Under the pieces are notes generated by a model. It ran no database searches, had not been told where the DNA came from, and worked only from the letters and a program-made list of their open reading frames with translations. DNA of 52,188 nucleotides. Source: a virus. This document shows, piece by piece, positions 6,156 to 48,584 of the stretch; the first letter of the stretch is position 1; every line of letters begins with the position of its first letter. Location of the stretch: positions 1-52,188 of the IMG/VR virus record IMGVR_UViG_3300042569_002280; one strand, given 5' to 3'. The position numbers and the translations under genes were made by a program.

Positions 6156-8483
6156 ATGAGAAAAATAGTCTCTTTTTCCCTTTTTAATAAAATATTAGAG
6201 GGCGACCAAACATACGAGGAACTCGTTCCAGAGTTCCCTGAGTATAACTCAATACTATCCGCATTTCTTAATACAACAACTTCTATTCTTACAAGAACTA
6301 AGGGTATTGACAGAGAAGTATTAGCAAGCCTAGTTGATGATATAAAAACAGTTCCTTTAGAAGGCAAGGCTAATGCTTTGACAAAAGTATTTGACGGCGT
6401 CGTAAAATATGAAAATCCAGATTTAGATCCCGCTGTAAAGAGCAAGTTAAACGAGATTCAAGCTGAGATTAAAAAGATAGAGCCTCTCCTATCTGAACTC
6501 ATTGCACAGGAGGAAGATGTAGAGGTTAAGGAAAAATTGCTAGACTTTATATCTAAATGGTGCGATAAGAGCAGGGATGTGATTCTAAAACCGGAAGACG
6601 TAAAAGAGTCTTTAAGAATTTTTGAATCTATTAAGATCGATCCTAGAAACATGTTCAATGTTTTTAGCTCTGATGTTTCTAATCTTTTAACACAGTCCAA
6701 TGCAGTAAAAACTGACATTGATGCACTCTATGATAATCCAACCAGTGCTAGATTAAAGAGAAGTATAGAGCCCTATAAAAGAAAAATAGATTTGCTAGTA
6801 GACGAGCTTCAAACAGGGAATGGACAGGGCGTAAATTGGTCTATACTCAATAGACCGCAGGCAAAAGAAAGAATAGCTTTTATTCAAAATGCGATAAGGG
6901 ATATAGTTAACGACTACACAGAGATAAGCTTCAAGGAAACTGCTTATGATGGTAGAATTAAACCTATAATGGCTAAACTAAGCTCCGTAACGGACAGAAT
7001 AAATGTCCTACTGTCAGATCTATTGAGAATAGAAAAAGAGATAGAGGAAGAAAAAGTTATATCTGCATCGATGAAGGAAGCTAATTTGGATTGGAGCATA
7101 AAGTCCTTTATGTCCGAAGAAATAATTGGGCAGAGAAGGGAAAAGTGGTATGAGCCAATTACACAAGGCGGGAATTTTACACTACAATCATTCGAGAGAT
7201 TTGGTCCAGATGATCTTTTAAAAGGAGACACATACTCTTACAAATTAGAGGGAAGTAAATGGTATACAGCCAAAGATAAAAACATAGATTCCGATTCAAA
7301 AGAATGGGTCGAAATAACAGACCCAGAGTCTATTAAGATTTTAAATAATGCATACGCATATAGGCTAATAAAGGTGATTGAATGGTGTGTAGATAATAAA
7401 AAATCCTTTTACGACAAGAGCGGAAATCCCGTAATGACTGATGAGGAATATAGAAAATGCATAGCTACTTTAGCGGCGGCTAAAAACTTTGATCCTATAG
7501 CAGCTTCTAAGAGTGTTAAAGGTAAAGCGGGATATGATGAATTTAATTACCAGGACGGAGCGGGATCAGACACACAGGAAACTAATGACGGTGGATCTGG
7601 ATCGGACGGATCAGATGGGTCCTCTAAAAATACCAACCCAGTAAAAAAGGAGGAGAAGACAGCCACATGGGAGACAATTTCTAAAGAACTACCAGGTTTA
7701 ACTTTTAGAGTAGGTGATAACGTAGTTACCAATGATAATGCGGAAAGAAAATGGCAGAAGGCAGGAAAGGATCTCACTACAACATGGTTTACCCCAGGCT
7801 CTTTCACTACACCGGATAACATAAAGTCAGAAGGATTTGAGATGAGCGGCTATTGGGTAAGACTAGCATCAGGTTATTGGGAGATGTATAAGGGAACGAA
7901 TAAACCTGCCAACGAAGATGGTAAAATATTAAGAATGAAGATTTTTCAGAACAAGGATAAAAAAACTTCTGATCTTTTTAAAAATATAATTACAAGTTTA
8001 AATAGCCAGCTGGAAAGAATTCTTAATGATTTAAAGGATTTGACTAGATATTGGGGGGTTGGATCAGGTAAAACTAACATCAGCGATACCGCTTGGGGAT
8101 CTGAAAAGGAATCAAGAGCTATCATCAAAGGGGGAGGAACAAAGGACGAAAGAATAGAGGTTGAGATCTGGCCTGATAAATTAGGAGGAAGCTCCACGTC
8201 CGACGATGTCATTCTAAAGGTTTATAAAAACGGTGGATTGGGAATATTGGATGACGATAATTCCGATAGCATCTGGGGTAGCTGGAAGGTTGATGATGAC
8301 GGCGATAACTTTATAGTAAAATGGGAAATGTATAGCGGCTCCTCCAATAAAGGATGGAAACCGATTAGCGATTATTCAGGTGGAAGAATAGGTGCAATTA
8401 CTAAATTTACTGGACCTGTTAGCGGGGGATTAAAACCAGTTTTAGATGACGCAATGAGAAGATTCATACAGGTTTTCTATTAA
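6156..8483 (+). CDS. Probable capsid-targeted internal head protein, 775 aa
   Basis: No whole-protein family is recognised. The N terminus (MRKIVSFSLFNKILEGD) ends in I-L-E followed by G, matching the T4 prohead-protease site (I/L-x-E). It resembles the capsid-targeting sequence of T4 internal proteins (MKTYQEFIAE). The next two genes begin the same way. Residues ~20-460 are mostly helical and charged; one stretch (LYDNPTSARLKRSIEPYKRKIDLLVDEL region) resembles the product at 8531, suggesting paralogy. A Gly/Ser/Asp linker near residues 465-500 separates this from a Trp-rich beta C-terminal part that may bind or adhere. A late-promoter-like nonamer precedes it. Packaging into the head and ejection with DNA are inference. 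Confidence 0.5.
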   Translation: MRKIVSFSLFNKILEGDQTYEELVPEFPEYNSILSAFLNTTTSILTRTKGIDREVLASLVDDIKTVPLEGKANALTKVFDGVVKYENPDLDPAVKSKLNEIQAEIKKIEPLLSELIAQEEDVEVKEKLLDFISKWCDKSRDVILKPEDVKESLRIFESIKIDPRNMFNVFSSDVSNLLTQSNAVKTDIDALYDNPTSARLKRSIEPYKRKIDLLVDELQTGNGQGVNWSILNRPQAKERIAFIQNAIRDIVNDYTEISFKETAYDGRIKPIMAKLSSVTDRINVLLSDLLRIEKEIEEEKVISASMKEANLDWSIKSFMSEEIIGQRREKWYEPITQGGNFTLQSFERFGPDDLLKGDTYSYKLEGSKWYTAKDKNIDSDSKEWVEITDPESIKILNNAYAYRLIKVIEWCVDNKKSFYDKSGNPVMTDEEYRKCIATLAAAKNFDPIAASKSVKGKAGYDEFNYQDGAGSDTQETNDGGSGSDGSDGSSKNTNPVKKEEKTATWETISKELPGLTFRVGDNVVTNDNAERKWQKAGKDLTTTWFTPGSFTTPDNIKSEGFEMSGYWVRLASGYWEMYKGTNKPANEDGKILRMKIFQNKDKKTSDLFKNIITSLNSQLERILNDLKDLTRYWGVGSGKTNISDTAWGSEKESRAIIKGGGTKDERIEVEIWPDKLGGSSTSDDVILKVYKNGGLGILDDDNSDSIWGSWKVDDDGDNFIVKWEMYSGSSNKGWKPISDYSGGRIGAITKFTGPVSGGLKPVLDDAMRRFIQVFY

Positions 8484-8498
8484 ATGAAATAGAAAAAA

Positions 8499-8507
8499 GA
8501 TATATAA
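8499..8507 (+). promoter_or_regulatory. Candidate phage late promoter (GATATATAA)
   Basis: GATATATAA followed by an A-rich leader, 23 nt before the ATG at 8531. Same nonamer as at 6126 with the same spacing class. Confidence 0.55.
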
Positions 8508-8530
8508 GAAAAACAAAAAAAAACATAACA

Positions 8531-9802
8531 ATGAAACCAATTTTAGATTTTAAAACGTTCCAGAGGATATTCGAAGCTGACGAGCCTGCAAAAGAGGGGG
8601 TTTTAGCTATTGCTCCTTTGCTATTAAGCTTATATTTTCAGGCTTACGGAGAACTAGCCTCCAAAGTGGAGGGATATAAGGATGTAGTTAAGGATCTTCA
8701 ATCCATCATGAAAAAACCAGAAGAAATAGTAGTCATAGCTAAGAAAATAGTGGCACTAGTTAAAGATGCGGAGATAAAGAAAGAATTAGAAGCTTCTATA
8801 GTACCAGCTGTTACAGTTTTAGTTGAAGCTTATAAAGAGCTCTTAAATACAGCTAGCGACGAAGATAAGAAGAAAATGCAAGAGGCATTCGCTGATGGTG
8901 TTTTGGACTATCAAAACAGTCTTATTCAAGCTGTTAAATCAGTTAACGAAAGCTATTTTATAGAAAGAGATCCTATCCTAGAAAAGAATACATTTAAAGA
9001 CGATAGATCTGATTTAATCAGAGACCTCAACACTCTAGAAAGTGGAATCAACATGGTTCTTTTAAATCCTCCAACAGAGAGAATAAAAGGAGCAATGTCA
9101 GGACTAGCAGGACAGGTTAAAGAACTTAAAAAAGAACTTACCGATGATGCTAAATGGGAGGCAATGAGTAGAAAGGATAGAAAGAACAGAGTGAAGGAAA
9201 TCCCTCAGTTGATTGCTAAAATAAAAGAGGATCAGAGTAAAGCTATTTCTGATGAGGTTGTTAAATCCGGGATAGAGAAAACAGTATTGACCAAAATACA
9301 GGATGCACAAGCTAAATTAAAAGCAGGCACTGAAAAAATAGGCGCTATAGTTCAGAAGAATATAGAAACCAAGAAATCAGAAGACTCTAAAAAATCAGCT
9401 GAGGAAGAAGCTAAGGCGTTAAACGATTTCAAGAAAGCTAGTCTTAAATTAGACGATTACAAAGAGATCGTAACTGGCAAAAAAGAAGTTGGGAACCTTC
9501 AGAAGAAAGGTAAGAATCTTAAGACAATTCAGAAGATCCAGGAGTTATTGAATAACTACTTAGAAAAACCAATTAAGGCAGATGGACTTTACGGCGAAGG
9601 CACTGAAAAAGCTATCGCGGAGGTATCTAAAGCACTATCTCTAATTGAGCCAGAAGTGAAAAGTGACGGTAAAGTAATGTCACCTCTTTTGCAAGCTATG
9701 CTTATGAAAATCGAAGAGAAAGGTGGAAAGGAAAAAGTTAAACAAGCATTCGATAAGGTTTCTAAAGAAGGTAGCGGAGAAGAAAAGGCAGAAAAAAAGT
9801 AA
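8531..9802 (+). CDS. Probable capsid-targeted internal protein with peptidoglycan-binding-like C terminus, 423 aa
   Basis: The N terminus MKPILDFKTFQRIFEAD carries I-F-E before A, the best match of the three to the T4 capsid-targeting and gp21-cleavage signal. The body is helical, Lys/Glu-rich and probably coiled. Near residue 135 VNESYFIERDPILEK repeats the I/L-x-E pattern and has a counterpart in the product at 9817. Around residues 327-372 is a peptidoglycan-binding-domain-like segment: IQKIQELLNNYL, then ADGLYGEGTEKAI, as in the DG-x-x-G-x-x-T-x-x-A-I core of PG_binding_1. The tail is Lys/Glu-rich. A protein stored in the head and ejected, with affinity for cell wall, would fit; a structural scaffold is the alternative. 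Confidence 0.5.
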   Translation: MKPILDFKTFQRIFEADEPAKEGVLAIAPLLLSLYFQAYGELASKVEGYKDVVKDLQSIMKKPEEIVVIAKKIVALVKDAEIKKELEASIVPAVTVLVEAYKELLNTASDEDKKKMQEAFADGVLDYQNSLIQAVKSVNESYFIERDPILEKNTFKDDRSDLIRDLNTLESGINMVLLNPPTERIKGAMSGLAGQVKELKKELTDDAKWEAMSRKDRKNRVKEIPQLIAKIKEDQSKAISDEVVKSGIEKTVLTKIQDAQAKLKAGTEKIGAIVQKNIETKKSEDSKKSAEEEAKALNDFKKASLKLDDYKEIVTGKKEVGNLQKKGKNLKTIQKIQELLNNYLEKPIKADGLYGEGTEKAIAEVSKALSLIEPEVKSDGKVMSPLLQAMLMKIEEKGGKEKVKQAFDKVSKEGSGEEKAEKK

Positions 9803-9816
9803 ATTAAAGGCATCTA

Positions 9817-11601
9817 ATGAAAATACTGAGCTTCTCAGATTATCTATTTGAAAAGGAGGATCCCAATGAGGGATCCTTCTCTTCTGATGAATTTACCTTT
9901 AGAAACGGTATATTCGGTGGGACCAGATTCAAATCTAACAAAAAAATGGATCTCATAGATATCTCAGGAGACACCAAGCTAATGCCCAAGGACGATAAAG
10001 CAGTATTGGGGATTAGAAATTGGGAAAGAATATCAGGAATAGATTCCAAAAGGAAAAAAGGATCAGAGGATCAGTATAAATGGATAGAACTAGAAAATAA
10101 AGGTGCGACTAAGAGATATCAGGAAGGCGATCAGGAATTTGATGCAGCGGTGAGATTCATAAATAGATTAATCAATCAACTATATTCCCAAAGTACCAAG
10201 GGGGGTGATTCTGAAACTGGTAAGGATATTAGTGCAGACGATTCTATCTATAGGCTATTATTGGATAAAGCTCTTTCAGCATTAGTCATGATGAGAGCTA
10301 TTCTACCGGTGAACGCAGAGGGTAAGCCGGAGATAAAAGATCTTTTAGATGACTTCAATATCTACACTAACATAATAGATATCTTAAGCCAGGTAAAGCC
10401 GGATAAGGCTTCACATAAAAAAATGTGGGGCGATATAAAGAACCTAGGCACGGAGAGTGAGAAGTACATAGAGGAATTTGGTCAAGTGTGGGGTAAATTA
10501 GAGGAAGTCCCAGAGGAGGGAGAGACCAGAATAGAGATGATGAATAGAGGTGTTTTGGATTTAAAGAACGCTAAAGAAAAATACAGTGCCACCGGAAATG
10601 GTGCTTCCACTTTTATAAAAGCAGGTATAGATAGCTATGCTAACGGAGGATTAAATTTATTGGATAGCAACGGAATTGATCTAAACTCCTTGCAAAAAGT
10701 TTTTCCAGAGATCATAAAAAAATACGAGGAAAAAGAAGCGAGCGGAGCAGTTAACGAATCTTATATTAATCTAAAAAATAGATCAGATCTATTCGAGAGA
10801 AAAAAATCAGACGATACTTCCACAGCTCAGATGCAGGAAGCTTCATACTCAACCCTACTAAATCAAGTAATATCTCTAGCTGGAATCATAGATAGCTTCA
10901 TAGATTTCTTTATAGGATCTCCGTTTGAAACAGAAATCAGGGCTTCAGCCGTTAAGTACCAAAAACCACTTCAGCAGGCTGCACAGTTTTTATCGTCTAA
11001 TAACTTCTCACAGATAAGGGGAAGCAGTGCAGGCGGTGATAAGATCAAGGAGATAACCGACAACTTAGAAAAGCTATCCGCACAAAATGGAGAGCTTAGT
11101 ATCGCCGAGTGGAAAAATAAATCCCTAGAAAAATACGGGAACGCCCAGATTTCTAACGACTTTCTTAACGACGGTGATGCAAAGATAGCAAGAGCTCAGG
11201 GTATAGTAAACGATATGGTTAAGTTATCCTCACTTAAACAGAAAGCAGCTTCAACACAACTTCAAAATGTAATAGCTGATATTGCTAATGTGAACACAGT
11301 GGGAGATTCTAAGATTGATAGAATAGGCGGAGGCGATGGCGTGACAGATGGAGCACCCACCTCTAAAGCAGATATAGAAGAGCTTCAGAAGGAAATATCT
11401 AATATATTGGGTACACCCAAATCTGCTACAGATAAAGTAACACCAGAGGAGGTATTGGAAATAGCTAGATATCTTTCACTGCTAACAGGAAAGACATATA
11501 AAACTGCTAACGGTACCACAGACACAGCGGAGATTAATAAGGACATACGTATATTCCTAGAAAAAAGAGGGGATATAAAGAAAGAGCTATACGTTAATTG
11601 A
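9817..11601 (+). CDS. Probable capsid-targeted internal head protein, 594 aa
   Basis: The N terminus MKILSFSDYLFEKED ends in L-F-E, again the prohead-protease pattern. A second site-like stretch near residues 312-330 (VNESYINLKNRSDLFERK) resembles VNESYFIERDPILEK in the preceding protein. Together with the start similarity, this links the three consecutive gene products. The rest is acidic/helical with no motif I recognise, no signal peptide and no transmembrane segment. It starts 14 bases after the upstream gene and has no separate promoter-like nonamer, so it is probably co-transcribed with the gene at 8531. A role as head-internal or core protein is inference. Confidence 0.5.
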   Translation: MKILSFSDYLFEKEDPNEGSFSSDEFTFRNGIFGGTRFKSNKKMDLIDISGDTKLMPKDDKAVLGIRNWERISGIDSKRKKGSEDQYKWIELENKGATKRYQEGDQEFDAAVRFINRLINQLYSQSTKGGDSETGKDISADDSIYRLLLDKALSALVMMRAILPVNAEGKPEIKDLLDDFNIYTNIIDILSQVKPDKASHKKMWGDIKNLGTESEKYIEEFGQVWGKLEEVPEEGETRIEMMNRGVLDLKNAKEKYSATGNGASTFIKAGIDSYANGGLNLLDSNGIDLNSLQKVFPEIIKKYEEKEASGAVNESYINLKNRSDLFERKKSDDTSTAQMQEASYSTLLNQVISLAGIIDSFIDFFIGSPFETEIRASAVKYQKPLQQAAQFLSSNNFSQIRGSSAGGDKIKEITDNLEKLSAQNGELSIAEWKNKSLEKYGNAQISNDFLNDGDAKIARAQGIVNDMVKLSSLKQKAASTQLQNVIADIANVNTVGDSKIDRIGGGDGVTDGAPTSKADIEELQKEISNILGTPKSATDKVTPEEVLEIARYLSLLTGKTYKTANGTTDTAEINKDIRIFLEKRGDIKKELYVN

Positions 11602-11831: not shown

Positions 11832-13019
11832 ATGGCTAAAACTACATCGGAAAAAGGGAAAGGCTTTTCTTTCCTATCACTGGATAAAGAGCTTTCAAAG
11901 ATATCCGGGTTTGAGACGGGGTCTATTCTTTCAGAAAACTCTTTCAGTGAGGTTGACGAGTGGATTTCCACTGGTAACTATCTTCTTAATGCCCAAATAT
12001 CGGGAACCCTATTTGGGGGAATACCAAATACAAGATCGCTAGGTGTCATGGGAGACCCGGGAACGGGTAAATCTTTTTTCTGTCTAAACGTCGTTAGAGA
12101 GGCACAGAAGCAAGGATACGATGTCATATATTGTGACACAGAGGGTGCTATTGATAAAAGCAGCGCTAAAAACTTCGGTATTGATCTAAACAAGATTAGA
12201 TACCAGCCTATTCAAACTGTTTCACAATTCCAAACATTTGTATCTAATATATTAGATCTTGTTAAGAAATCCAAAAGTGAGGGCGAAAATCCAAAGATCT
12301 TATTGATACTTGATTCTTTAGGTATGCTTAGTACGGATAAGGAACTAGCCGATGCTCTAAAAGGGCATAATGCAGCAGATATGGGGGCTAAAGCTAAGGA
12401 GCTTAGAAAGCTATTTAGAGTTATTACACTAGACCTAACTGCAGCTAAGATCCCTTTGATCTGTACAAACCACGTTTATACCGGAGGTGGCTACATGCCG
12501 ACCAAAGAAAGCTCAGGTGGCGATGGACCAATCTTCGCTATGTCTGCTGTTGCGTTTCTTTCTAAGGCTCAGCTGAAAGATGGTGCAGGCACTAAGACTG
12601 GTATAGTTGTTACGTCCAATCTTAAGAAAAGTAGATTCACTGTCCCTGAAATGATCAAGTTTCATATATCATTTGCTAATGGTATGAATCCATATGTTGG
12701 GTTACAGGACTATGTTTCTTGGGATGTTTGCGGTATAGAAAGAGGTAAATTCGAGGAAGTAAAGAACGCTGAAGGTAAAAAAGAAATGGTTTTTAAGCCT
12801 AACGCATCGGCAGTTAGATGGGGCGTTAAACATCTAGGAAAGACCATAGCATCTACGGAGTTATTCTCACCCAATATTTTCACTGATGAGGTTTTAAAAA
12901 ATATTGACGAGCGCGTAATCCAGCCTAAATTCAAATTGCCAGATCTATCCGATCCTACTGAAATTTTAGATGAATTGGAAATGGGCGGAAATGAGGTAGA
13001 CGACAATGGAGAGGAATAA
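11832..13019 (+). CDS. uvsX: UvsX-like RecA-family recombinase
   Basis: 395 residues, the size of T4 UvsX (391). Walker A is GDPGTGKS at residues 74-81 and Walker B is LLILDSLG with D161. TNHVYTGGGYMP and SSGGDGPIFAMS correspond to the L2/DNA-binding region of UvsX/RecA proteins. The C terminus is acidic (DELEMGGNEVDDNGEE), as in UvsX. It would form filaments on single-stranded DNA and start recombination-dependent replication with the gp41 helicase and gp46/gp47 encoded just downstream. Its last codons overlap the next gene by 14 bases. A 230-nt leader with a palindrome precedes it, suggesting separate control from the head-protein genes upstream. Confidence 0.93.
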   Translation: MAKTTSEKGKGFSFLSLDKELSKISGFETGSILSENSFSEVDEWISTGNYLLNAQISGTLFGGIPNTRSLGVMGDPGTGKSFFCLNVVREAQKQGYDVIYCDTEGAIDKSSAKNFGIDLNKIRYQPIQTVSQFQTFVSNILDLVKKSKSEGENPKILLILDSLGMLSTDKELADALKGHNAADMGAKAKELRKLFRVITLDLTAAKIPLICTNHVYTGGGYMPTKESSGGDGPIFAMSAVAFLSKAQLKDGAGTKTGIVVTSNLKKSRFTVPEMIKFHISFANGMNPYVGLQDYVSWDVCGIERGKFEEVKNAEGKKEMVFKPNASAVRWGVKHLGKTIASTELFSPNIFTDEVLKNIDERVIQPKFKLPDLSDPTEILDELEMGGNEVDDNGEE

Positions 13020-21016: not shown

Positions 21017-24000
21017 ATGCTTACGGATAACCTGTTTAGTGGAATTGTAGATTTTACCGACGGTAGCTTAAGCAGCTTAGTTGGTATCACAGGTAGTGCG
21101 ACATACGGGTCCAGTGTGATAACTGGAGTTGATAGCACGATCATACCTGGATTAACTGCTGGCCTTTCGGTTAGAGCACTACCAGAAGGAATTCTCAATC
21201 CCTCTACAACGATAGTTTCTTTGGGCTCTAACACGGTAGAGTTTTCTAACCCGGTAGGTTACACCGGATCCGCTAATTTTTATATAGAACTAAGCAGCGG
21301 CAATTATCTTTTAAACAACGCTTTATTTGTTGACGTTAACAACATCTATAATGTTGGTGATATACCAGACTATCAAATAGGAGCCACTGGAGGATTGGTA
21401 ATTTCTCCTTTTGCGATCTATACTCAGGGAAGATATAACGATCAGAAGAATCTTAAAGCCATATATGAAAAGTACATAATAACAAAAGTACTTTCAAGGA
21501 ACACAGTAACAAATAGATTTAGCGCTATAGTTACTTGGGGTTTTTCAGGATCTGCACCGACGAGTGTTAATACTGGACAGACAGTTCTACCTATAACTCA
21601 GCTATCCCCGAATAATTTATTGCCTCCCATAATAGACTATAGAGCATTTTCTTATAAGAATCTTCCGGAAGGACAGCCATTTAATCAGGAGATATTAAAG
21701 GTCTTAGATTCTGGAGGAAGCGGAGGAAGCGGAGGAAGCGGAACTTCAGGAACAAGTGGTAGTTCAGGATCTTCAGGAACTTCAGGAACAAGTGGTAGTT
21801 CAGGCACTAGCGGCACAGACGGTTCATCGGGAACTAGCGGTACAGATGGCTCAAGTGGAACTTCAGGAACTAGCGGTACGGATGGTAGTTCAGGAACTAG
21901 CGGTACAGATGGTTCAAGTGGAACTTCAGGTAGTTCAGGTACAAGCGGAACAGATGGTTCTTCAGGAAGTAGTGGTACGGATGGTAGCAGCGGTACATCA
22001 GGTACTAGCGGAGCAGATGGTTCATCAGGAACTTCAGGAACATCAGGATCCAGTGGTTCTTCAGGTGAATCGGGTTCAAGTGGTTCATCAGGTGAATCGG
22101 GAACATCAGGATCCAGTGGTTCCTCAGGTGAATCGGGTTCAAGTGGTTCTTCAGGTGAATCAGGAACAAGTGGTTCTTCAGGTGAATCAGGTTCAAGTGG
22201 TTCTTCAGGTGAATCAGGAACTTCAGGATCCAGTGGAACATCGGGATCCAGTGGAACATCAGGTGAATCAGGAACTTCAGGATCGAGTGGAACTTCAGGA
22301 TCCAGTGGTTCTTCAGGTGAATCAGGATCCAGTGGTTCTTCAGGTGAATCAGGAACTTCAGGATCGAGTGGAACTTCAGGATCCAGTGGAACATCAGGTG
22401 AATCAGGAACAAGTGGTTCTTCAGGTGAATCAGGAACTTCAGGATCCAGTGGAACATCGGGATCCAGTGGAACATCAGGTGAATCAGGAACTTCAGGAAC
22501 TTCAGGATCGAGTGGAACTTCAGGATCCAGTGGTTCTTCAGGTGAATCAGGAACTTCAGGATCGAGTGGAACATCAGGATCCAGTGGAACATCAGGTGAA
22601 TCAGGAACAAGTGGTTCTTCAGGTGAATCAGGAACTTCAGGAACTTCAGGATCGAGTGGAACTTCAGGATCCAGTGGAACATCAGGTGAATCGGGAACAA
22701 GTGGTTCTTCAGGTGAATCAGGAACTTCAGGATCGAGTGGAACATCGGGATCTTCAGGCTCAAGTGGTTCTTCAGGAACATCAGGTTCTTCAGGAACATC
22801 AGGTTCTTCAGGAACATCAGGTTCTAGTGGATCAAGTGGATCAAGTGGATCAAGTGGTTCTTCAGGAACATCAGGTTCTAGTGGATCAAGTGGATCAAGT
22901 GGATCAAGTGGATCAAGTGGTTCTTCAGGAACATCAGGTTCTAGTGGATCAAGTGGTTCTAGTGGATCAAGTGGTTCTTCAGGAACATCAGGTTCTAGTG
23001 GATCAAGTGGTTCTAGTGGATCAAGTGGTTCTTCAGGAACTAGTGGTTCTAGTGGATCAAGCGGTTCTAGTGGATCAAGCGGTTCTTCAGGAACTAGTGG
23101 TTCTTCAGGAACATCAGGTTCTTCAGGAACATCAGGTTCTTCAGGAACATCAGGTTCTTCAGGAACATCAGGTTCTAGTGGATCAAGTGGTTCTTCAGGA
23201 ACATCAGGAACATCAGGTTCTAGTGGATCAAGTGGTTCATCAGGAACTAGTGGTTCTTCAGGAACATCAGGTTCTAGTGGATCAAGTGGTTCTAGTGGAT
23301 CAAGCGGTTCTTCAGGAACATCAGGTTCTAGTGGATCAAGTGGTTCTAGTGGATCAAGCGGTTCTTCAGGAACATCAGGTTCTAGTGGATCAAGTGGTTC
23401 TAGTGGATCAAGTGGTTCTTCAGGAACATCAGGTTCTAGTGGATCAAGTGGTTCTAGTGGATCAAGTGGTTCTTCAGGAACAAGTGGTTCAAGAGGAACA
23501 TCAGGTTCTTCAGGAACATCAGGTTCTTCAGGAACTAGTGGTTCTAGTGGATCAAGTGGTTCTTCAGGAACTTCAGGTTCTAGTGGATCAAGCGGTTCTT
23601 CAGGAACATCAGGTTCTTCAGGAACTAGTGGTTCTAGTGGATCAAGTGGTTCTTCAGGAACATCAGGTTCTAGTGGATCAAGTGGTTCTAGTGGATCAAG
23701 TGGTTCTAGTGGATCAAGCGGTTCTTCAGGAACATCAGGTTCTAGTGGATCAAGTGGTTCTAGTGGATCAAGTGGTTCTAGTGGATCAAGTGGTTCTTCA
23801 GGAACATCAGGTTCTAGTGGATCAAGTGGATCAAGTGGTTCTTCGGGAACATCAGGTTCTAGTGGATCAAGTGGTTCTAGTGGATCAAGTGGTTCTTCAG
23901 GAACATCAGGTTCTTCAGGTTCATCAGGATCAAGTGGTTCTTCAGGAACTTCAGGTTCTTCAGGAACTTCAGGCTCTTCGGGGTCAAGTGGTTCTTCAGG

Positions 24001-27000
24001 GTCAAGTGGTTCTTCAGGAACTTCAGGCTCAGCAGGAACATCAGGCTCTTCAGGGTCAAGTGGTTCTTCAGGAACTTCAGGCTCAGCAGGAACTTCAGGC
24101 TCAGCAGGAACTTCAGGCTCAGCAGGAACTTCAGGCTCAGCAGGAACTTCAGGCTCTTCTGGGTCAAGTGGTTCTTCAGGGTCAAGTGGTTCTTCTGGGT
24201 CAAGTGGTTCTTCAGGAACATCAGGCTCTTCGGGGTCAAGTGGTTCTTCAGGAACATCAGGCTCAGCAGGAACATCAGGATCTGCTGGAACATCAGGAAC
24301 TTCTCCTACAGGATTAGTTGCTTCTAATTATGTTGTTAGAGGAGTTAAAGGTGGATCTACACAAACAATTACATCCGGTGCAGATGACGTAGTAACATTT
24401 GTTGATGATTTTGATCCAAATGGTTGGTTAACTTCTAATAAAATTCAACCTACAGTCGCTGGTTATTATATTGTTAATGCTCAAGTTTGGTGGGATGCTG
24501 GTGTTGTTACTAATAATCAATCTAATATCCAATTTAGAAAAAATGGATCAACCCAAGTAGCTATCAACCAAACACAGATTCTTACAGGATCTGGATATGC
24601 TCAAGAGATAGATGCTATAATTTTCTTTAATGGAACTACTGATTATATAGAAGTAACAGCATTCACAGGTAATACAACATCTCAAGTAATAAATGCTGCT
24701 AATGGCGGAACATATGTAGAAGCTTCTTTAATAGTTGGTGGTGGTACATCAGGAACTTCAGGAACATCAGGTTCAAGTGGTTCTTCAGGAACATCAGGTT
24801 CTTCAGGATCAAGTGGTTCTTCAGGAGCTAATGGTTCATCAGGAACATCAGGCTCTTCAGGATCATCAGGAACAAGTGGTAGTTCAGGTACTTCTGGCTC
24901 AAGTGGAACATCCGGATCTAGCGGTACATCAGGAACAAGTGGTTCTAGTGGAACTTCAGGAAGTAGTGGTAGTACAGGTTCTTCTGGAACATCAGGTAGT
25001 TCAGGAACAAGTGGTTCTGCCGGTTCAAGTGGAAGTTCTGGTTCTTCGGGTTCAAGTGGGGTGTCAGGTAGTTCAGGAACAAGTGGTTCTGCCGGTTCAA
25101 GTGGAAGTTCTGGTTCTTCGGGTTCAAGTGGGGTGTCAGGTAGTTCAGGAACAAGCGGAAGTAGTGGTTCTTCAGGAAGTTCTGGTTCATCAGGGTCTAG
25201 CGGTTCTTCAGGTAGCTCAGGTTCAGTAGGTACATCAGGTTCAAGTGGTTCTTCAGGAAGTACAGGAACATCAGGTAGTGCTGGTTCTTCTGGCTCAAGT
25301 GGTAGCTCAGGTTCTTCAGGAAGTGCAGGAACATCGGGTAGTAGCGGAACATCAGGTTCCTCAGGTTCAAGTGGTAGTACAGGTTCTTCAGGAAGTTCTG
25401 GAACGAGTGGTAGTTCGGGTTCTGTTGGAACTTCAGGAACGTCTGGAAGTTCTGGTAGTAGTGGGTCTTCTGGTAATTCTGGTTCTTCAGGAACTAGCGG
25501 AACATCTGGAACAAGTGGTTCATCAGGTTCTAGCGGTAGCGCTGGAAGCTCAGGAACGTCAGGTTCTGTAGGTACAAGTGGGACATCAGGTTCTAGCGGA
25601 AGTTCTGGTTCTTCAGGTACTACAGGTTCAAGTGGAACTAGTGGTTCTTCAGGAACATCTGGTACTAGTGGTAGTTCAGGAAGTTCTGGTTCATCGGGTA
25701 GTACAGGTACTTCAGGAAGCTCAGGCTCAAGCGGAACAAGTGGTTCTTCAGGGTCTAGCGGTTCATCGGGTTCTAGTGGAAGTTCAGGGTCATCTGGTAG
25801 TACAGGTTCAAGAGGGACTAGCGGAACATCTGGTACAAGTGGTACATCAGGTACATCAGGATCAAGTGGATCTACTGGTACATCAGGTTCGTCAGGATCA
25901 AGTGGTTCATCAGGATCAAGTGGATCTACTGGTACATCAGGTTCAAGTGGTTCAAGTGGTTCATCAGGATCAAGTGGATCTACTGGTACATCAGGTTCAA
26001 GTGGATCTACTGGTACATCAGGTTCAAGTGGATCAAGTGGATCTACTGGTACATCAGGTTCATCAGGATCAAGCGGATCTACTGGTACAAGTGGTACATC
26101 AGGTACATCAGGATCAAGTGGATCTACTGGTACAAGTGGTACATCAGGTACATCAGGATCAAGTGGTTCATCAGGATCAAGTGGATCTACTGGTACATCA
26201 GGTACATCAGGTACATCAGGTTCATCAGGATCATCAGGATCAAGTGGATCTACTGGTACATCAGGTTCAAGTGGATCAAGTGGTTCGTCAGGGTCAAGCG
26301 GATCAAGTGGATCTACTGGTACATCAGGTAGCTCCGGGTCAAGTGGCTCATCAGGAAGTTCAGGTTCTGCGGGTACTAGTGGAAGTGTTGGAACTTCGGG
26401 TTCTTCAGGTTCGAGTGGGTCGTCAGGAAGCTCGGGTTCCACAGGTTCAAGAGGTACTAGCGGTACATCAGGAAGTTCTGGCTCAGTAGGAACTTCAGGT
26501 ACTAGTGGAAGTTCAGGAACATCCGGTTCAAGTGGTAGTACTGGCAGTACAGGAACAAGTGGTTCGTCAGGTTCTAGTGGATCTACTGGTACATCAGGTT
26601 CATCAGGATCAAGTGGATCTACTGGTACATCAGGTTCATCAGGATCAAGTGGTTCATCAGGTAGTAGTGGAAGTTCGGGGTCATCTGGTAGTACAGGTTC
26701 AAGAGGGACTAGCGGAACATCAGGTACAAGTGGTAGTTCAGGAACATCTGGTTCAAATGGTACATCAGGAAGTTCTGGTTCATCGGGTAGTAGTGGTACT
26801 TCAGGTTCATCAGGATTAAGTGGTGTTGATGGTACAAACGGTACAAGTGGTAGTTCAGGAACGAGTGGAACCTCTGGTACATCAGGATCAAGTGGATCTA
26901 CTGGTACATCAGGTAGTTCAGGATCAAGTGGATCTGCTGGTACATCAGGTTCATCAGGAAGTGCTGGTACGAGTGGAAGTTCAGGAAGTAGTGGCTCATC

Positions 27001-30000
27001 AGGTTCTTCAGGAAGTACTGGTTCAAGAGGAACATCAGGTACATCGGGTACTAGTGGAAGTTCAGGTTCATCAGGAAGTGCTGGTACGAGTGGAAGTTCA
27101 GGAAGTAGTGGTACATCGGGTGCCAATGGAAGCAGTGGAACATCAGGTAGTTCGGGGTCTAGCGGAAGTGCTGGTTCATCAGGAAGTTCAGGTTCAACTG
27201 GAACATCTGGTTCAAGTGGTAGTTCAGGAAGTACAGGTTCTTCTGGTTCAAGTGGAACATCAGGAAGTTCAGGGTCTAGTGGTTCTTCAGGTTCTAGTGG
27301 TAGTGCTGGAAGTTCTGGTACATCAGGTGCTAATGGTAGTTCAGGAACATCTGGCTCAAGCGGTTCATCTGGCTCAAGTGGAAGTAGCGGTAGTTCTGGT
27401 TCTGTTGGAACATCAGGTTCTAGTGGAAGTAGTGGTAGTTCAGGGTCTTCAGGAAGTACTGGTTCAAGAGGAACAAGCGGTTCTTCAGGAACCTCAGGAA
27501 CAAGTGGAAGTGTTGGAACATCAGGTACGAGCGGTTCGTCAGGTTCTAGTGGTAGCACTGGAAGCTCAGGAAGTGCGGGTACATCAGGAACATCGGGGAC
27601 ATCAGGAACTTCAGGTTCAAGTGGTTCGTCAGGTTCTAGTGGTAGCACTGGAAGCTCAGGAAGTACTGGTACAAGCGGAAGTTCTGGTTCATCAGGTAGT
27701 TCAGGGTCATCAGGTTCTAGTGGAAGTGTTGGAACTAGCGGTTCATCAGGAAGTTCGGGTTCAAGCGGTAGTAGTGGAAGTTCAGGTTCTACTGGCTCAA
27801 GAGGAACATCAGGAACATCAGGTGTTAATGGTAGTTCAGGAACATCAGGGACAAGTGGTTCGTCAGGTTCTAGCGGAAGTGCTGGAAGCTCAGGAAGTTC
27901 TGGTTCTGTTGGTACTTCAGGAACATCTGGTTCAAGTGGAAGCTCGGGGTCATCTGGAAGCTCAGGAAGTAGTGGTTCATCAGGTACATCGGGAGCTAAC
28001 GGAAGTTCAGGTACAAGTGGCTCTTCAGGAAGTAGTGGTAGTTCAGGGTCATCTGGTTCTGCGGGTACATCGGGAGCTAACGGAAGTTCAGGAACATCTG
28101 GTTCAAGTGGTAGTGCTGGAAGCTCAGGAAGTAGTGGTAGTTCTGGTTCCGTTGGTACGTCAGGTTCTAGCGGTTCATCAGGAAGTTCTGGTACGAGTGG
28201 AAGTTCAGGAAGTAGTGGCTCATCAGGTTCTTCAGGAAGTACAGGTTCAAGAGGAACATCAGGTACTTCGGGAACATCAGGTACATCAGGTGCCAATGGA
28301 AGTAGTGGAACATCAGGTAGTAGTGGTTCTAGCGGAAGTGCTGGAAGCTCAGGAAGTTCAGGTTCAACTGGAACATCTGGTTCTTCAGGAAGTAGTGGTT
28401 CTAGTGGTAGTTCAGGAAGTACAGGTTCTTCTGGTTCAAGTGGAACATCAGGTTCGTCAGGAAGTTCCGGCTCATCAGGATCAAGTGGGTCTGCTGGAAC
28501 TTCAGGGGCTAACGGAAGTTCAGGAACAAGTGGTTCTTCAGGTTCTAGTGGTAGTGCTGGAAGCTCAGGAAGTTCTGGTACATCGGGTGCTAACGGAAGT
28601 TCAGGAACATCAGGTAGTAGTGGTTCTAGTGGAAGTGCTGGTTCATCAGGAAGTTCAGGTTCAACTGGTACATCTGGTTCTTCAGGAAGTAGTGGTTCTA
28701 GTGGAAGCGCTGGTTCATCAGGAAGTACAGGTTCAAGAGGAACATCAGGTACATCAGGAACATCAGGAAGTGCTGGTTCATCAGGTTCAAGTGGAAGTTC
28801 AGGAACATCAGGAGCTAACGGAAGTTCGGGAACATCCGGTACAAGTGGAAGTTCAGGTTCTTCGGGAAGTAGTGGTAGTTCTGGCTCTGCTGGTACATCA
28901 GGTGCTAATGGAAGTAGCGGAACATCAGGTAGCTCTGGTTCATCTGGCTCAAGTGGAAGTAGTGGTAGTTCAGGTTCATCAGGAACAAGTGGGGCTAATG
29001 GAAGTTCAGGTACAAGTGGTAGTTCTGGAACATCGGGCTCAAGTGGGTCGTCAGGTAGTTCAGGCTCAAGTGGAAGTTCTGGAATTAACGGTTCATCAGG
29101 AACTTCAGGTTCAAGTGGTAGCACAGGGTCTACTGGTAGTAGTGGTTCTTCAGGTAGTTCAGGAACATCAGGAAGTAGTGGGACATCGGGAAGTTCTGGT
29201 TCAAGCGGAAGTTCTGGTTCATCAGGAAGCACAGGTTCAAGAGGAACAAGTGGTTCTTCAGGAACATCAGGAAGTGCTGGTTCATCAGGTTCAAGTGGTA
29301 GTACTGGAAGCTCGGGTACTTCTGGTTCATCAGGAAGTTCTGGCTCAAGCGGATTAACAGGTTCTTCAGGAACAAGCGGTTCGAGTGGTTCTTCAGGAAG
29401 TACAGGTTCTAGCGGAAGTGCTGGAAGCTCAGGAAGTTCAGGTACATCAGGTGCTAATGGAAGCAGTGGAACCTCTGGGTCAAGTGGTTCATCAGGAAGT
29501 GCTGGCTCATCAGGAAGTTCAGGTTCAACTGGTTCTTCGGGAAGTAGTGGTTCTAGTGGAAGCGCTGGTTCATCAGGAAGTACAGGTTCAAGAGGTACTA
29601 GTGGTACATCAGGGACATCAGGGACATCAGGAAGTGCTGGTTCATCAGGTACATCAGGTGCTAATGGAAGCAGTGGAACCTCTGGGTCAAGTGGTTCATC
29701 AGGAAGTGCTGGCTCATCAGGTTCAAGTGGAAGTTCAGGAACATCGGGAAGCAGTGGTTCTTCAGGTTTTAGTGGAAGTTCAGGAACATCAGGAACAAGT
29801 GGAAGTTCAGGTTCATCAGGAAGTTCTGGAATTACTGGTTCATCGGGAACTTCAGGTTCTAGCGGAAGTGCTGGCAGCTCAGGAAGTGGAGGTTCATCGG
29901 GAACATCAGGTTCTTCGGGAACAAGTGGAAGTGCTGGTTCATCAGGAAGTTCTGGAATTACTGGTTCATCAGGTACTTCTGGTTCATCGGGTAGTTCAGG

Positions 30001-46739: not shown

Positions 46740-48584
46740 ATGGCGGAAGAAACAAACAAGAATCAGCCGGAGCTAAATGATGGTAATTATTGGAGCACGG
46801 CTAAAGTTAACGAGTTACTCAGAAAAGCAGACGAGGAAGGGCTAGATTTCAAGAGTGTAGATAATCCTTTCCATGACAATAATCCTGAGCTAAGAAGATC
46901 TAATGTACTATTCGAGTACACACAGGAGGAGATAATAGAAATTGACAAGTGCGCAAGGGACGTCATCTACTTTTCAAAATATTGTCAGGTTATGACCGAT
47001 ACCGGTCTTGCTTATATTACTCTGAGAGAATATCAAGAATCGGTATTAAGAGAATATCAGGCCAATAGATTTAATATATTCCTAGCACCCCGGCAGGTTG
47101 GTAAATCCATAATGTCCGCTGTTTTTCTGGTGTGGTTTTTACTTTTCAACCACGATAAAAATGCGATGATACTGGCAAACGTTGGTGACACAGCAGAGGA
47201 ATTGATGGATAAGATAAAAGCCATAATAAAAGGATTGCCTTTCTTCTTGAAGCCAGGAATGATGGTCAATAATGTGATGTCTGTGCGTTTTGATAACGGA
47301 TGTAGGGTTATTGCTAAAACGACCACTAAGACATCCGGTATTGGTTTTACTATTCATTTTTTATACATGGACGAGTTTGCTCACATTAACTCATCCTTTA
47401 TGGAAGCTTTCTTCAGGTCTACATACCCCACGGTATCTTCCTCGAAGGTGTCCCGAATCATTATAACATCTACCCCAAATGGAATGAATAAGTTCTATGA
47501 GATGTATATGAGCGCTGTTAAAAAGGAGAACACATTCAATCCAATTAGGGTTGATTGGTGGCAGGTACCGGGAAGGGATGATGTGTGGAAGCAGAATGAA
47601 ATATCCAACCTTGGATCCGAGGAGCTATTCAATCAGGAGTACGGTAATCAGTTCTTAAGCTCCTCTACGTTGCTACTTGGATCACAGGAGTTACAGAAGA
47701 TAAAAAGAAACGAGGTAGAGTACTTATGGAGGGAGATTGATGAGTTTCATTACTCTGACGTAAATTATGAGAATTTTCTATGGCATCCTAAATTTGATAT
47801 AGATAGTGCTGCAGAAGGGAATAAAAAATATGTTGTATCCGTCGATCTCTCAGGTGGAAACAAGGGTGATTTTACAGTCATTAATGTTTTCAAGGTCTCT
47901 CCTCTTCCAAAGAAAGTGATAGAAAGAATAGGAGAATTTGAGGACGAGGGTGATTTCTTTGGCCTTATTCAGGTTGGTATATTAAGGGACAACGAGATAA
48001 AACTGGAGGATGTTGTTAAGATACTTAGAATACTGGTAAAGAATGTACTAGGTGTCGAATCTGTGAAAATAGCTCTTGAGATAAATTACAAGGGAGAGCT
48101 TCTAGTTGATAAATTCCTTTCTGATGATGATTTATTTGAGGAAATTTTTGTTTACACTAAGCATTCTGAATCTGCTAGATCTTCTAAAGCTGGTATAAAA
48201 TACAATGAAAAGAACAAGATGAAAAACTGTGAGCAGCTCAGAACACTTGTTAGAGCAGACAGAATATTAGTGAATGATAAGAAATGGACAGTACCCGAGC
48301 TATTCACATTCGGGCTGAATTCAAGAGGAACATATTCCAGCCAAACAGGTCATGATGACGTTGCTATGTCCCTGGTTAATCTCTCCTCTGCTTTTGAAAG
48401 TGGAGATTTCTACCAACTGGTCGGAGAACTTTTTGATGCGATGGAAACCCCATATAAAGGATTAATATTAAATAAAATGGGGGAAACCGGGCAATCCCAA
48501 TCTTCTGATGAATTTGGATTCGGAAACCAAGGTCCTTCTACCAAGGACGGAAAAAGCTTTAGGGACTTTAGTTCCATGATGTAG
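46740..48584 (+). CDS. 17: Large terminase subunit, gp17-like
   Basis: 614 residues, the same length class as T4 gp17 (610). The ATPase has LAPRQVGKS (residues ~115-123) as Walker A and FLYMDEFAHI with D211-E212 as Walker B and catalytic carboxylate, then IIITSTPNGMNKFYEMY as the coupling motif. The RNase H-like nuclease starts at SVDLSGGNKGDF (D369), continues with ALEINYKGE and ends with the GHDDVAMSLVN carboxylates. It cuts concatemeric DNA and pumps it into the prohead. It starts 5 bases after gp16. Confidence 0.97.
   Translation: MAEETNKNQPELNDGNYWSTAKVNELLRKADEEGLDFKSVDNPFHDNNPELRRSNVLFEYTQEEIIEIDKCARDVIYFSKYCQVMTDTGLAYITLREYQESVLREYQANRFNIFLAPRQVGKSIMSAVFLVWFLLFNHDKNAMILANVGDTAEELMDKIKAIIKGLPFFLKPGMMVNNVMSVRFDNGCRVIAKTTTKTSGIGFTIHFLYMDEFAHINSSFMEAFFRSTYPTVSSSKVSRIIITSTPNGMNKFYEMYMSAVKKENTFNPIRVDWWQVPGRDDVWKQNEISNLGSEELFNQEYGNQFLSSSTLLLGSQELQKIKRNEVEYLWREIDEFHYSDVNYENFLWHPKFDIDSAAEGNKKYVVSVDLSGGNKGDFTVINVFKVSPLPKKVIERIGEFEDEGDFFGLIQVGILRDNEIKLEDVVKILRILVKNVLGVESVKIALEINYKGELLVDKFLSDDDLFEEIFVYTKHSESARSSKAGIKYNEKNKMKNCEQLRTLVRADRILVNDKKWTVPELFTFGLNSRGTYSSQTGHDDVAMSLVNLSSAFESGDFYQLVGELFDAMETPYKGLILNKMGETGQSQSSDEFGFGNQGPSTKDGKSFRDFSSMM

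Follow-up and report, generated by a model that had tools for sequence, protein, structure and literature searches.

P1, P2 and P3, three consecutive large open reading frames (ORFs) of a 52,188-nucleotide viral DNA (IMG/VR record IMGVR_UViG_3300042569_002280, positions 1 to 52,188, the whole of which is called the window here), begin with a common N-terminal tag, and comparison with related phages indicates that they are probably internal or core head proteins whose sorting depends on a capsid targeting sequence of the T4 type. The tag is read as a head signal chiefly because the ORFs that follow the major capsid gene bear it in nearly every one of these phages. By gene content the 52-kb fragment belongs to a T4-like jumbo phage, with genes identified for UvsX, a DnaB-like helicase, SbcC/D, a gp15-like sheath stabiliser, a neck protein, terminase and tail sheath; it ends directly past the sheath gene, short of the T4-like position for the portal, protease and major capsid protein. 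Relatives were gathered by synteny through two anchors, the terminase (80 loci, on contigs up to 373 kb) and UvsX (17 loci), since direct searches with P2 in IMG/VR and with P1 in INPHARED found nothing. The terminase of one relative (L004) is 100% identical to that of the window, and a second locus, L187, which holds the major capsid and protease genes, shares its source metagenome with L004.

The N-terminal tag and its conservation

The first-pass annotation had described three consecutive ORFs sharing an aromatic and hydrophobic N terminus that ends in [IL]xE, and this was borne out, the ORFs being present at the positions it gave (Table 1) with the tags KILE, RIFE and YLFE. Each tag is a short putative propeptide of 10-20 residues (ending ILE15 in P1, IFE15 in P2 and LFE12 in P3) with an aromatic pair, [FY]xx[FY], at the spacing of T4 Tyr4 and Phe7 (FSLF, FKTF and FSDY, respectively). 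The likeness to T4 that the annotation had drawn holds with exact spacing only in P3, as the aromatics and IxE lie two residues further apart in P1 and P2. In the structure model of P2 the tag is a detached helix of low confidence.

A relaxed pattern, [FYW]xx[FYWH]x(0-6)[LIM]xE within the first 26 residues, matches 6 of the 38 ORFs of the window against 0.8 expected from internal windows, and P1-P3 are the sole consecutive trio among the six; the other three (a glycosyltransferase, SbcC and a GtrB-like protein) look like chance. The probability that any consecutive triple matches is ~5e-4, but P1 and P2 are paralogues and so not independent, which makes conservation the stronger evidence. All 13 members of the P2 family retain the tag. 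In their alignment (22-35% identity to the P2 of the window) Glu15 is among 11 invariant columns, and Leu5 and Phe7 are at least 90% conserved; the first-found homologues are ~30% identical to P2 beside an adjoining UvsX that is mostly ~80% identical. Family tags include MDRVLSFSSYHKLNE/AE, MGKILSFGDYQKIFE/AD, MKIGKVVDFRTFHKLNE/AE, MKRVLDFNSYGKIFE/VD, MSKLRVLDFRSYHAINE/ED, MKDRVLKFSDFNKLFE/VD and MQKKSVLNFRQFSGIFE/DD, where the slash marks the predicted cut. All ATG starts are predicted, and two family members required a downstream ATG, not the first. Judged from these sequences, the shared tag is not a product of chance. The literature searched, which omitted most subscription papers, contained no report of a tag of this kind from these phages.

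The same pattern was counted across two near-complete relatives. Of the 427 ORFs of G017 it tags 35, where internal windows predict 10.2 (p=1e-8), and of the 371 of G035 it tags 41, where they predict 7.6 (p=5e-15), so that some genome-wide matches are chance (e.g. SbcC); a looser expression in G017 (42 tagged, ~14 expected) was dropped. Among the tagged G017 proteins are a RimK-like ATP-grasp protein (a RimK-type ligase), proteins with CHAP, SLT and PG_binding_1 domains, and an adenylate kinase whose Pfam domain starts at residue 27, behind the tag; by eye, G035 has matching tagged N termini on adenylate-kinase-like and RimK-like proteins. This spread over unrelated proteins in two genomes bears on a simpler explanation, that P1-P3 resemble each other at the N terminus by shared ancestry and carry no working signal. 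P1 is indeed a paralogue of P2, and P3 and P2 have a C-terminal domain in common, but the tag also stays while the protein bodies diverge, and ancestry as the sole cause is largely refuted and scarcely tenable.

Head genes of relatives and a proposed sorting pathway

Downstream of the major capsid gene, 46 of the 47 distinct N termini of the second ORF and all 46 of the third are tagged (for example MTLKFKEWNELNE/A and MLNYKQFILGE/A), as are 32 of 47 for the first ORF and 33 of 43 for the fourth by the same regular expression, which is looser than the genome-wide one yet misses some obvious cases. L187 has the same head-operon arrangement. The protease ORF of G017, the 373-kb relative, matches two families, Peptidase_S77 in Pfam (E=1e-7) and the head maturation protease phrog_207 (E=5e-37), and its C-terminal half is a scaffold with 12-13 perfect 14-residue tandem repeats, YSEYLAENLDKGIS. 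Repeat-bearing ORFs were found at 63 loci of the capsid-gene search, mostly with 11-13 copies, using a motif filter that partly imposes profile columns 1-7 but neither the other columns nor the spacing of 14 residues. The repeat unit YSEYLAE equals the T4 IPII/IPIII tag YQEFIAE, taken from the T4 genome sequence, in residue class everywhere but position 2 (Ser against Gln, both polar). The capsid protein of the relatives aligns to T4 gp23, and in all 54 distinct N-terminal arms the Glu nearest to the capsid fold belongs to SLNE/SA, the predicted maturation site. The first-pass annotation had read the N termini as a capsid-targeting signal with a prohead protease site, and had proposed comparison with the protease and the capsid-protein sites; located in relatives, these agree, as the S77 protease, the capsid site and the tagged head-operon families all fit [LI]xE.

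Based on these data we infer the following pathway. During assembly of the prohead core the N-terminal tag ([IVL]xx[FY]xx[FY]...[IL]xE) would dock on the scaffold portion of the fusion protein, as suggested by the 12-13 tandem repeats that share its sequence pattern. After shell closure the S77 prohead protease would cleave behind the tag Glu (E15, E15 and E12 in P1, P2 and P3) and the anchor would be lost, and probable further cleavage at second [IVL]xE sites in interdomain linkers would yield two or more mature pieces per protein, retained with the DNA in the virion. Capsid targeting and processing of the tagged proteins, as predicted here, are well supported by these comparisons.

The tag might instead address proteins to a destination other than the prohead, such as the cell envelope or the lysis machinery, as a PG_binding_1 domain in the P3 counterpart of one relative (L105, E=6e-38), a weak one in P2 and the tagged CHAP, SLT and PG-binding proteins of G017 could imply. 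We regard this as very unlikely given the almost universal tag on ORFs flanking the major capsid gene, its agreement with the scaffold repeats and the capsid-protein site, and its presence on an adenylate kinase and a RimK-type ligase without obvious envelope role. A broader form of the prohead reading is that the tag constitutes a genome-wide capsid address system covering roughly a tenth of the genes (35-41 in each genome, ~25-33 above chance), metabolic enzymes included, in which the tag would mimic the scaffold repeat to dock cargo and the virion would deliver a large prefabricated enzyme set; this we rate somewhat short of probable.

Domains, second sites and possible roles of P1-P3

P2 is modelled (mean predicted local distance difference test, pLDDT, 76) as a loose N-terminal helix, a domain at 22-137, a low-confidence linker at 139-152, a domain at 154-302 and a small C-terminal domain; the P3 model (pLDDT 49) is too poor for use. 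The C-terminal domain contains a PG_binding_1-like segment that scores 21.1 bits, short of the Pfam cut-off of 23. By profile comparison the first ~290 residues of P1 are a paralogue of P2 (E=1.6e-10), P2 aligns over 344 columns to the ~830-residue fourth ORF of the head operon (E=2.7e-7), and P2 and P3 have their C-terminal domain in common (E=1e-6), values to be taken with caution as pairwise profile E-values between helical proteins can be inflated. For the C-terminal ~480 residues of P1 no homologue was found in INPHARED or in a second search that lacked a positive control, and this appears to be the only lineage-specific part of the three proteins; we favour the view that P1 is a lineage-specific enlarged copy. 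Against Pfam and PHROGs, P1-P3 gave weak matches only, with no enzymatic domain and no homology to a known inhibitor. A Dynamin_M match (E=0.03) was rejected, and endolysin matches cover the PG-binding-like segment only. Foldseek comparison of the P2 model with PDB and BFVD gave no significant match, and the P2 and P3 family profiles matched PDB entries at chance level only.

Comparison of relatives suggests that P1-P3 would also be cut mid-protein, at [IVL]xE between domains, a point missed by the first-pass annotation. The P2 family has a conserved [LI][FL][ED]K followed by Asn, Asp or Gln at its mid-protein site; members with Asp in the motif have NE/G just before it, and in the L103 member this point carries a short insertion. 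The halves of P3 are separate genes in several relatives, in which the second gene starts LIE/NFGGFL, INE/GFL or INE/SFGSWL, and fused relatives hold LVE/DFGGFL, ILE/DFGGFL, TNE/G or VFE/G at the joint; the split gene of L106 is without the motif. Gene splitting or fusion at a candidate protease site agrees with what would be predicted for a processed precursor.

The first-pass annotation had proposed that P1-P3 are cargo ejected into the host with anti-host functions; T4 IPI and Alt are effectors of this kind. The same type of tag does mark ejected anti-host proteins in T4 (PMC3012670, PMC9391042), and the fast divergence of the P2 body, the lack of any relative found for the P1 C-terminal region and a tagged G017 protein weakly similar to an RNA 2'-phosphotransferase family (Table 1), possibly a parallel to T4's tagged ADP-ribosyltransferase Alt, are all in keeping with it. 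A second such candidate, a tagged 163-residue protein (L101:18090-18581) read by eye as an ADP-ribosyltransferase, was not supported by searches of Pfam, PHROGs and PDB sequences. However, every close relative having the UvsX-adjacent locus encodes P2 and P3, or the halves of P3, and P2 is similar to a protein of the head operon; both points suggest a regular core component and not a variable effector. Searches with P1-P3 gave no enzymatic domain, and those with the P2 model no fold match. Ejected effectors are rather unlikely. For P2 and P3 a core or internal structural role is at least as likely as anti-host cargo, favoured by their constant presence and their resemblance to the head-operon protein, and the modelled helical-bundle architecture of P2 would fit core or internal head proteins at least as well.

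Several points weigh against placing P1-P3 inside the head. The protease and capsid genes lie beyond the end of the window, and specificity was read from relatives. No proteomics for this phage group was found in the literature searched. Adenylate kinase and RimK are enzymes unusual in capsids, and the tag might do more than packaging. The motif [LIVM]xE is short, with 11-12 occurrences in each protein, and the internal sites are argued from conservation and not from the motif itself; the mid-protein site has Asp in some members of the P2 family, a residue that stops processing of T4 IPIII when it occupies the cleavage position (PMC9026906). To these is added the possible inflation of the profile E-values given above.

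Table 1. Coordinates of P1-P3, their tags and candidate sites, the anchor genes, and features in relatives (window positions unless a locus or genome is named)
Feature	Position	Strand	Description
P1	6156..8483	+	775 residues; N-terminal ~290 paralogous to P2, C-terminal ~480 without known relatives
P1 tag	6156..6200	+	residues 1-15, MRKIVSFSLFNKILE; predicted cut after E15, next residues GD
P1 second candidate site	6615..6626	+	RIFE157/S; putative, close to the conserved mid-protein site of P2
P2	8531..9802	+	423 residues; helical domain 1 (22-137), linker, helical domain 2 (154-302), peptidoglycan-binding-like C-terminal domain
P2 tag	8531..8575	+	residues 1-15, MKPILDFKTFQRIFE; E15 invariant (13 members), then AD
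P2 second candidate sites	8942..8983	+	VNE140/S and ILE151/K, within the low-confidence linker
P2 PG_binding_1-like segment	9527..9622	+	residues 333-364, under the Pfam gathering score
P3	9817..11601	+	594 residues; halves are separate genes in several relatives
P3 tag	9817..9852	+	residues 1-12, MKILSFSDYLFE; FxxYLxE, exact T4 spacing, then KE
P3 second candidate sites	10750..10797	+	VNE314/S and LFE327/R; putative, where the two halves join
UvsX recombinase	11832..13019	+	conserved right-hand neighbour, anchor for syntenic loci
Large terminase	46740..48584	+	anchor for relatives with the head operon
Protease-scaffold fusion	L110:13676-15646 (G017); L187:3954-5984; ~60 other loci		candidate cleavage site in each repeat
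Tagged adenylate kinase	G017 142406-143035		tag as N-terminal extension
Tagged RimK-like ATP-grasp protein	G017 154306-155766		tag as N-terminal extension
Tagged CHAP protein	G017 287360-288181		tag as N-terminal extension
Tagged SLT protein	G017 288840-289667		tag as N-terminal extension
Tagged 133-residue protein	G017 276892-277293	-	weak RNA 2'-phosphotransferase family match, E=2e-4

In relatives 2-4 genes, most bearing the tag, lie upstream of UvsX, with a GDP-mannose-dehydratase-like gene to their left in nearly all. At one locus (L162:9219-11453) an apparent intein interrupts the UvsX gene (C-terminal ...VEGAHHYFLENGVISHN, after which the UvsX sequence continues); an endonuclease ORF may lie between. 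The window is probably from a giant phage of Bacteroidota, the host being suggested by related freshwater phages (PMC9723584) and by terminase similarity to Tenacibaculum and Prevotella phages. Its first 1993 nucleotides (1-1993) hold a phosphoenolpyruvate phosphomutase (PF13714, 5e-48), an upstream partial frame that is nucleotidyltransferase-like by eye and, following it, a protein with the N-terminal domain of thiamine pyrophosphate enzymes; beside glycosyltransferases, these likely form a phage-encoded phosphonate pathway. At 21017-31261 a single ORF of 3414 residues stands next to a 364-residue tail-fibre-like protein, and the 1516-residue open antisense frame over it probably reflects the composition of a repetitive fibre gene.

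Comparison with T4 and other jumbo phages

In the T4 tag the aromatic residues 4 and 7 serve targeting and residues 8 and 10 (Ile and Glu) processing (PMC9026906), and these four positions are the ones conserved in the phages studied here. Like T4 IPI, IPII and IPIII (MKTYQEFIAE), the three proteins begin with an aromatic pair and then [IL]xE, position for position in P3, and have genes apart from the head operon and a conserved tag ahead of fast-diverging bodies. They differ in size (423-775 residues against roughly 100-190 in T4), in lacking any sequence or fold match to the T4 internal proteins, and in belonging to phages with conserved internal second sites and dozens of tagged proteins per genome. 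The small capsid-targeted set of T4 would thereby be extended to a tag, readable from sequence, on dozens of proteins of abundant, mostly uncultured jumbo phages, and offers a testable list of their virion contents.

The heads of phiKZ, SPN3US and 201phi2-1 are alike in that many inner proteins are cleaved after Glu, at several sites, by a gp21-type protease; the propeptides of SPN3US are mostly longer than 100 residues (PMC5694885), in contrast to the ~12-20 residues and T4-like [IL]xE sites seen here. As with the T4 gp21 protease and gp22 scaffold, the protease belongs to peptidase family S77 and the scaffold has many [LIV]xE sites, but here a single polypeptide contains both, and each unit of its perfect 14-residue tandem repeat has a tag-like motif. 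These repeats suggest that the capsid targeting sequence would correspond to one unit of the repeat in the scaffold itself, in which case the binding partner of the T4 tag would be directly testable.

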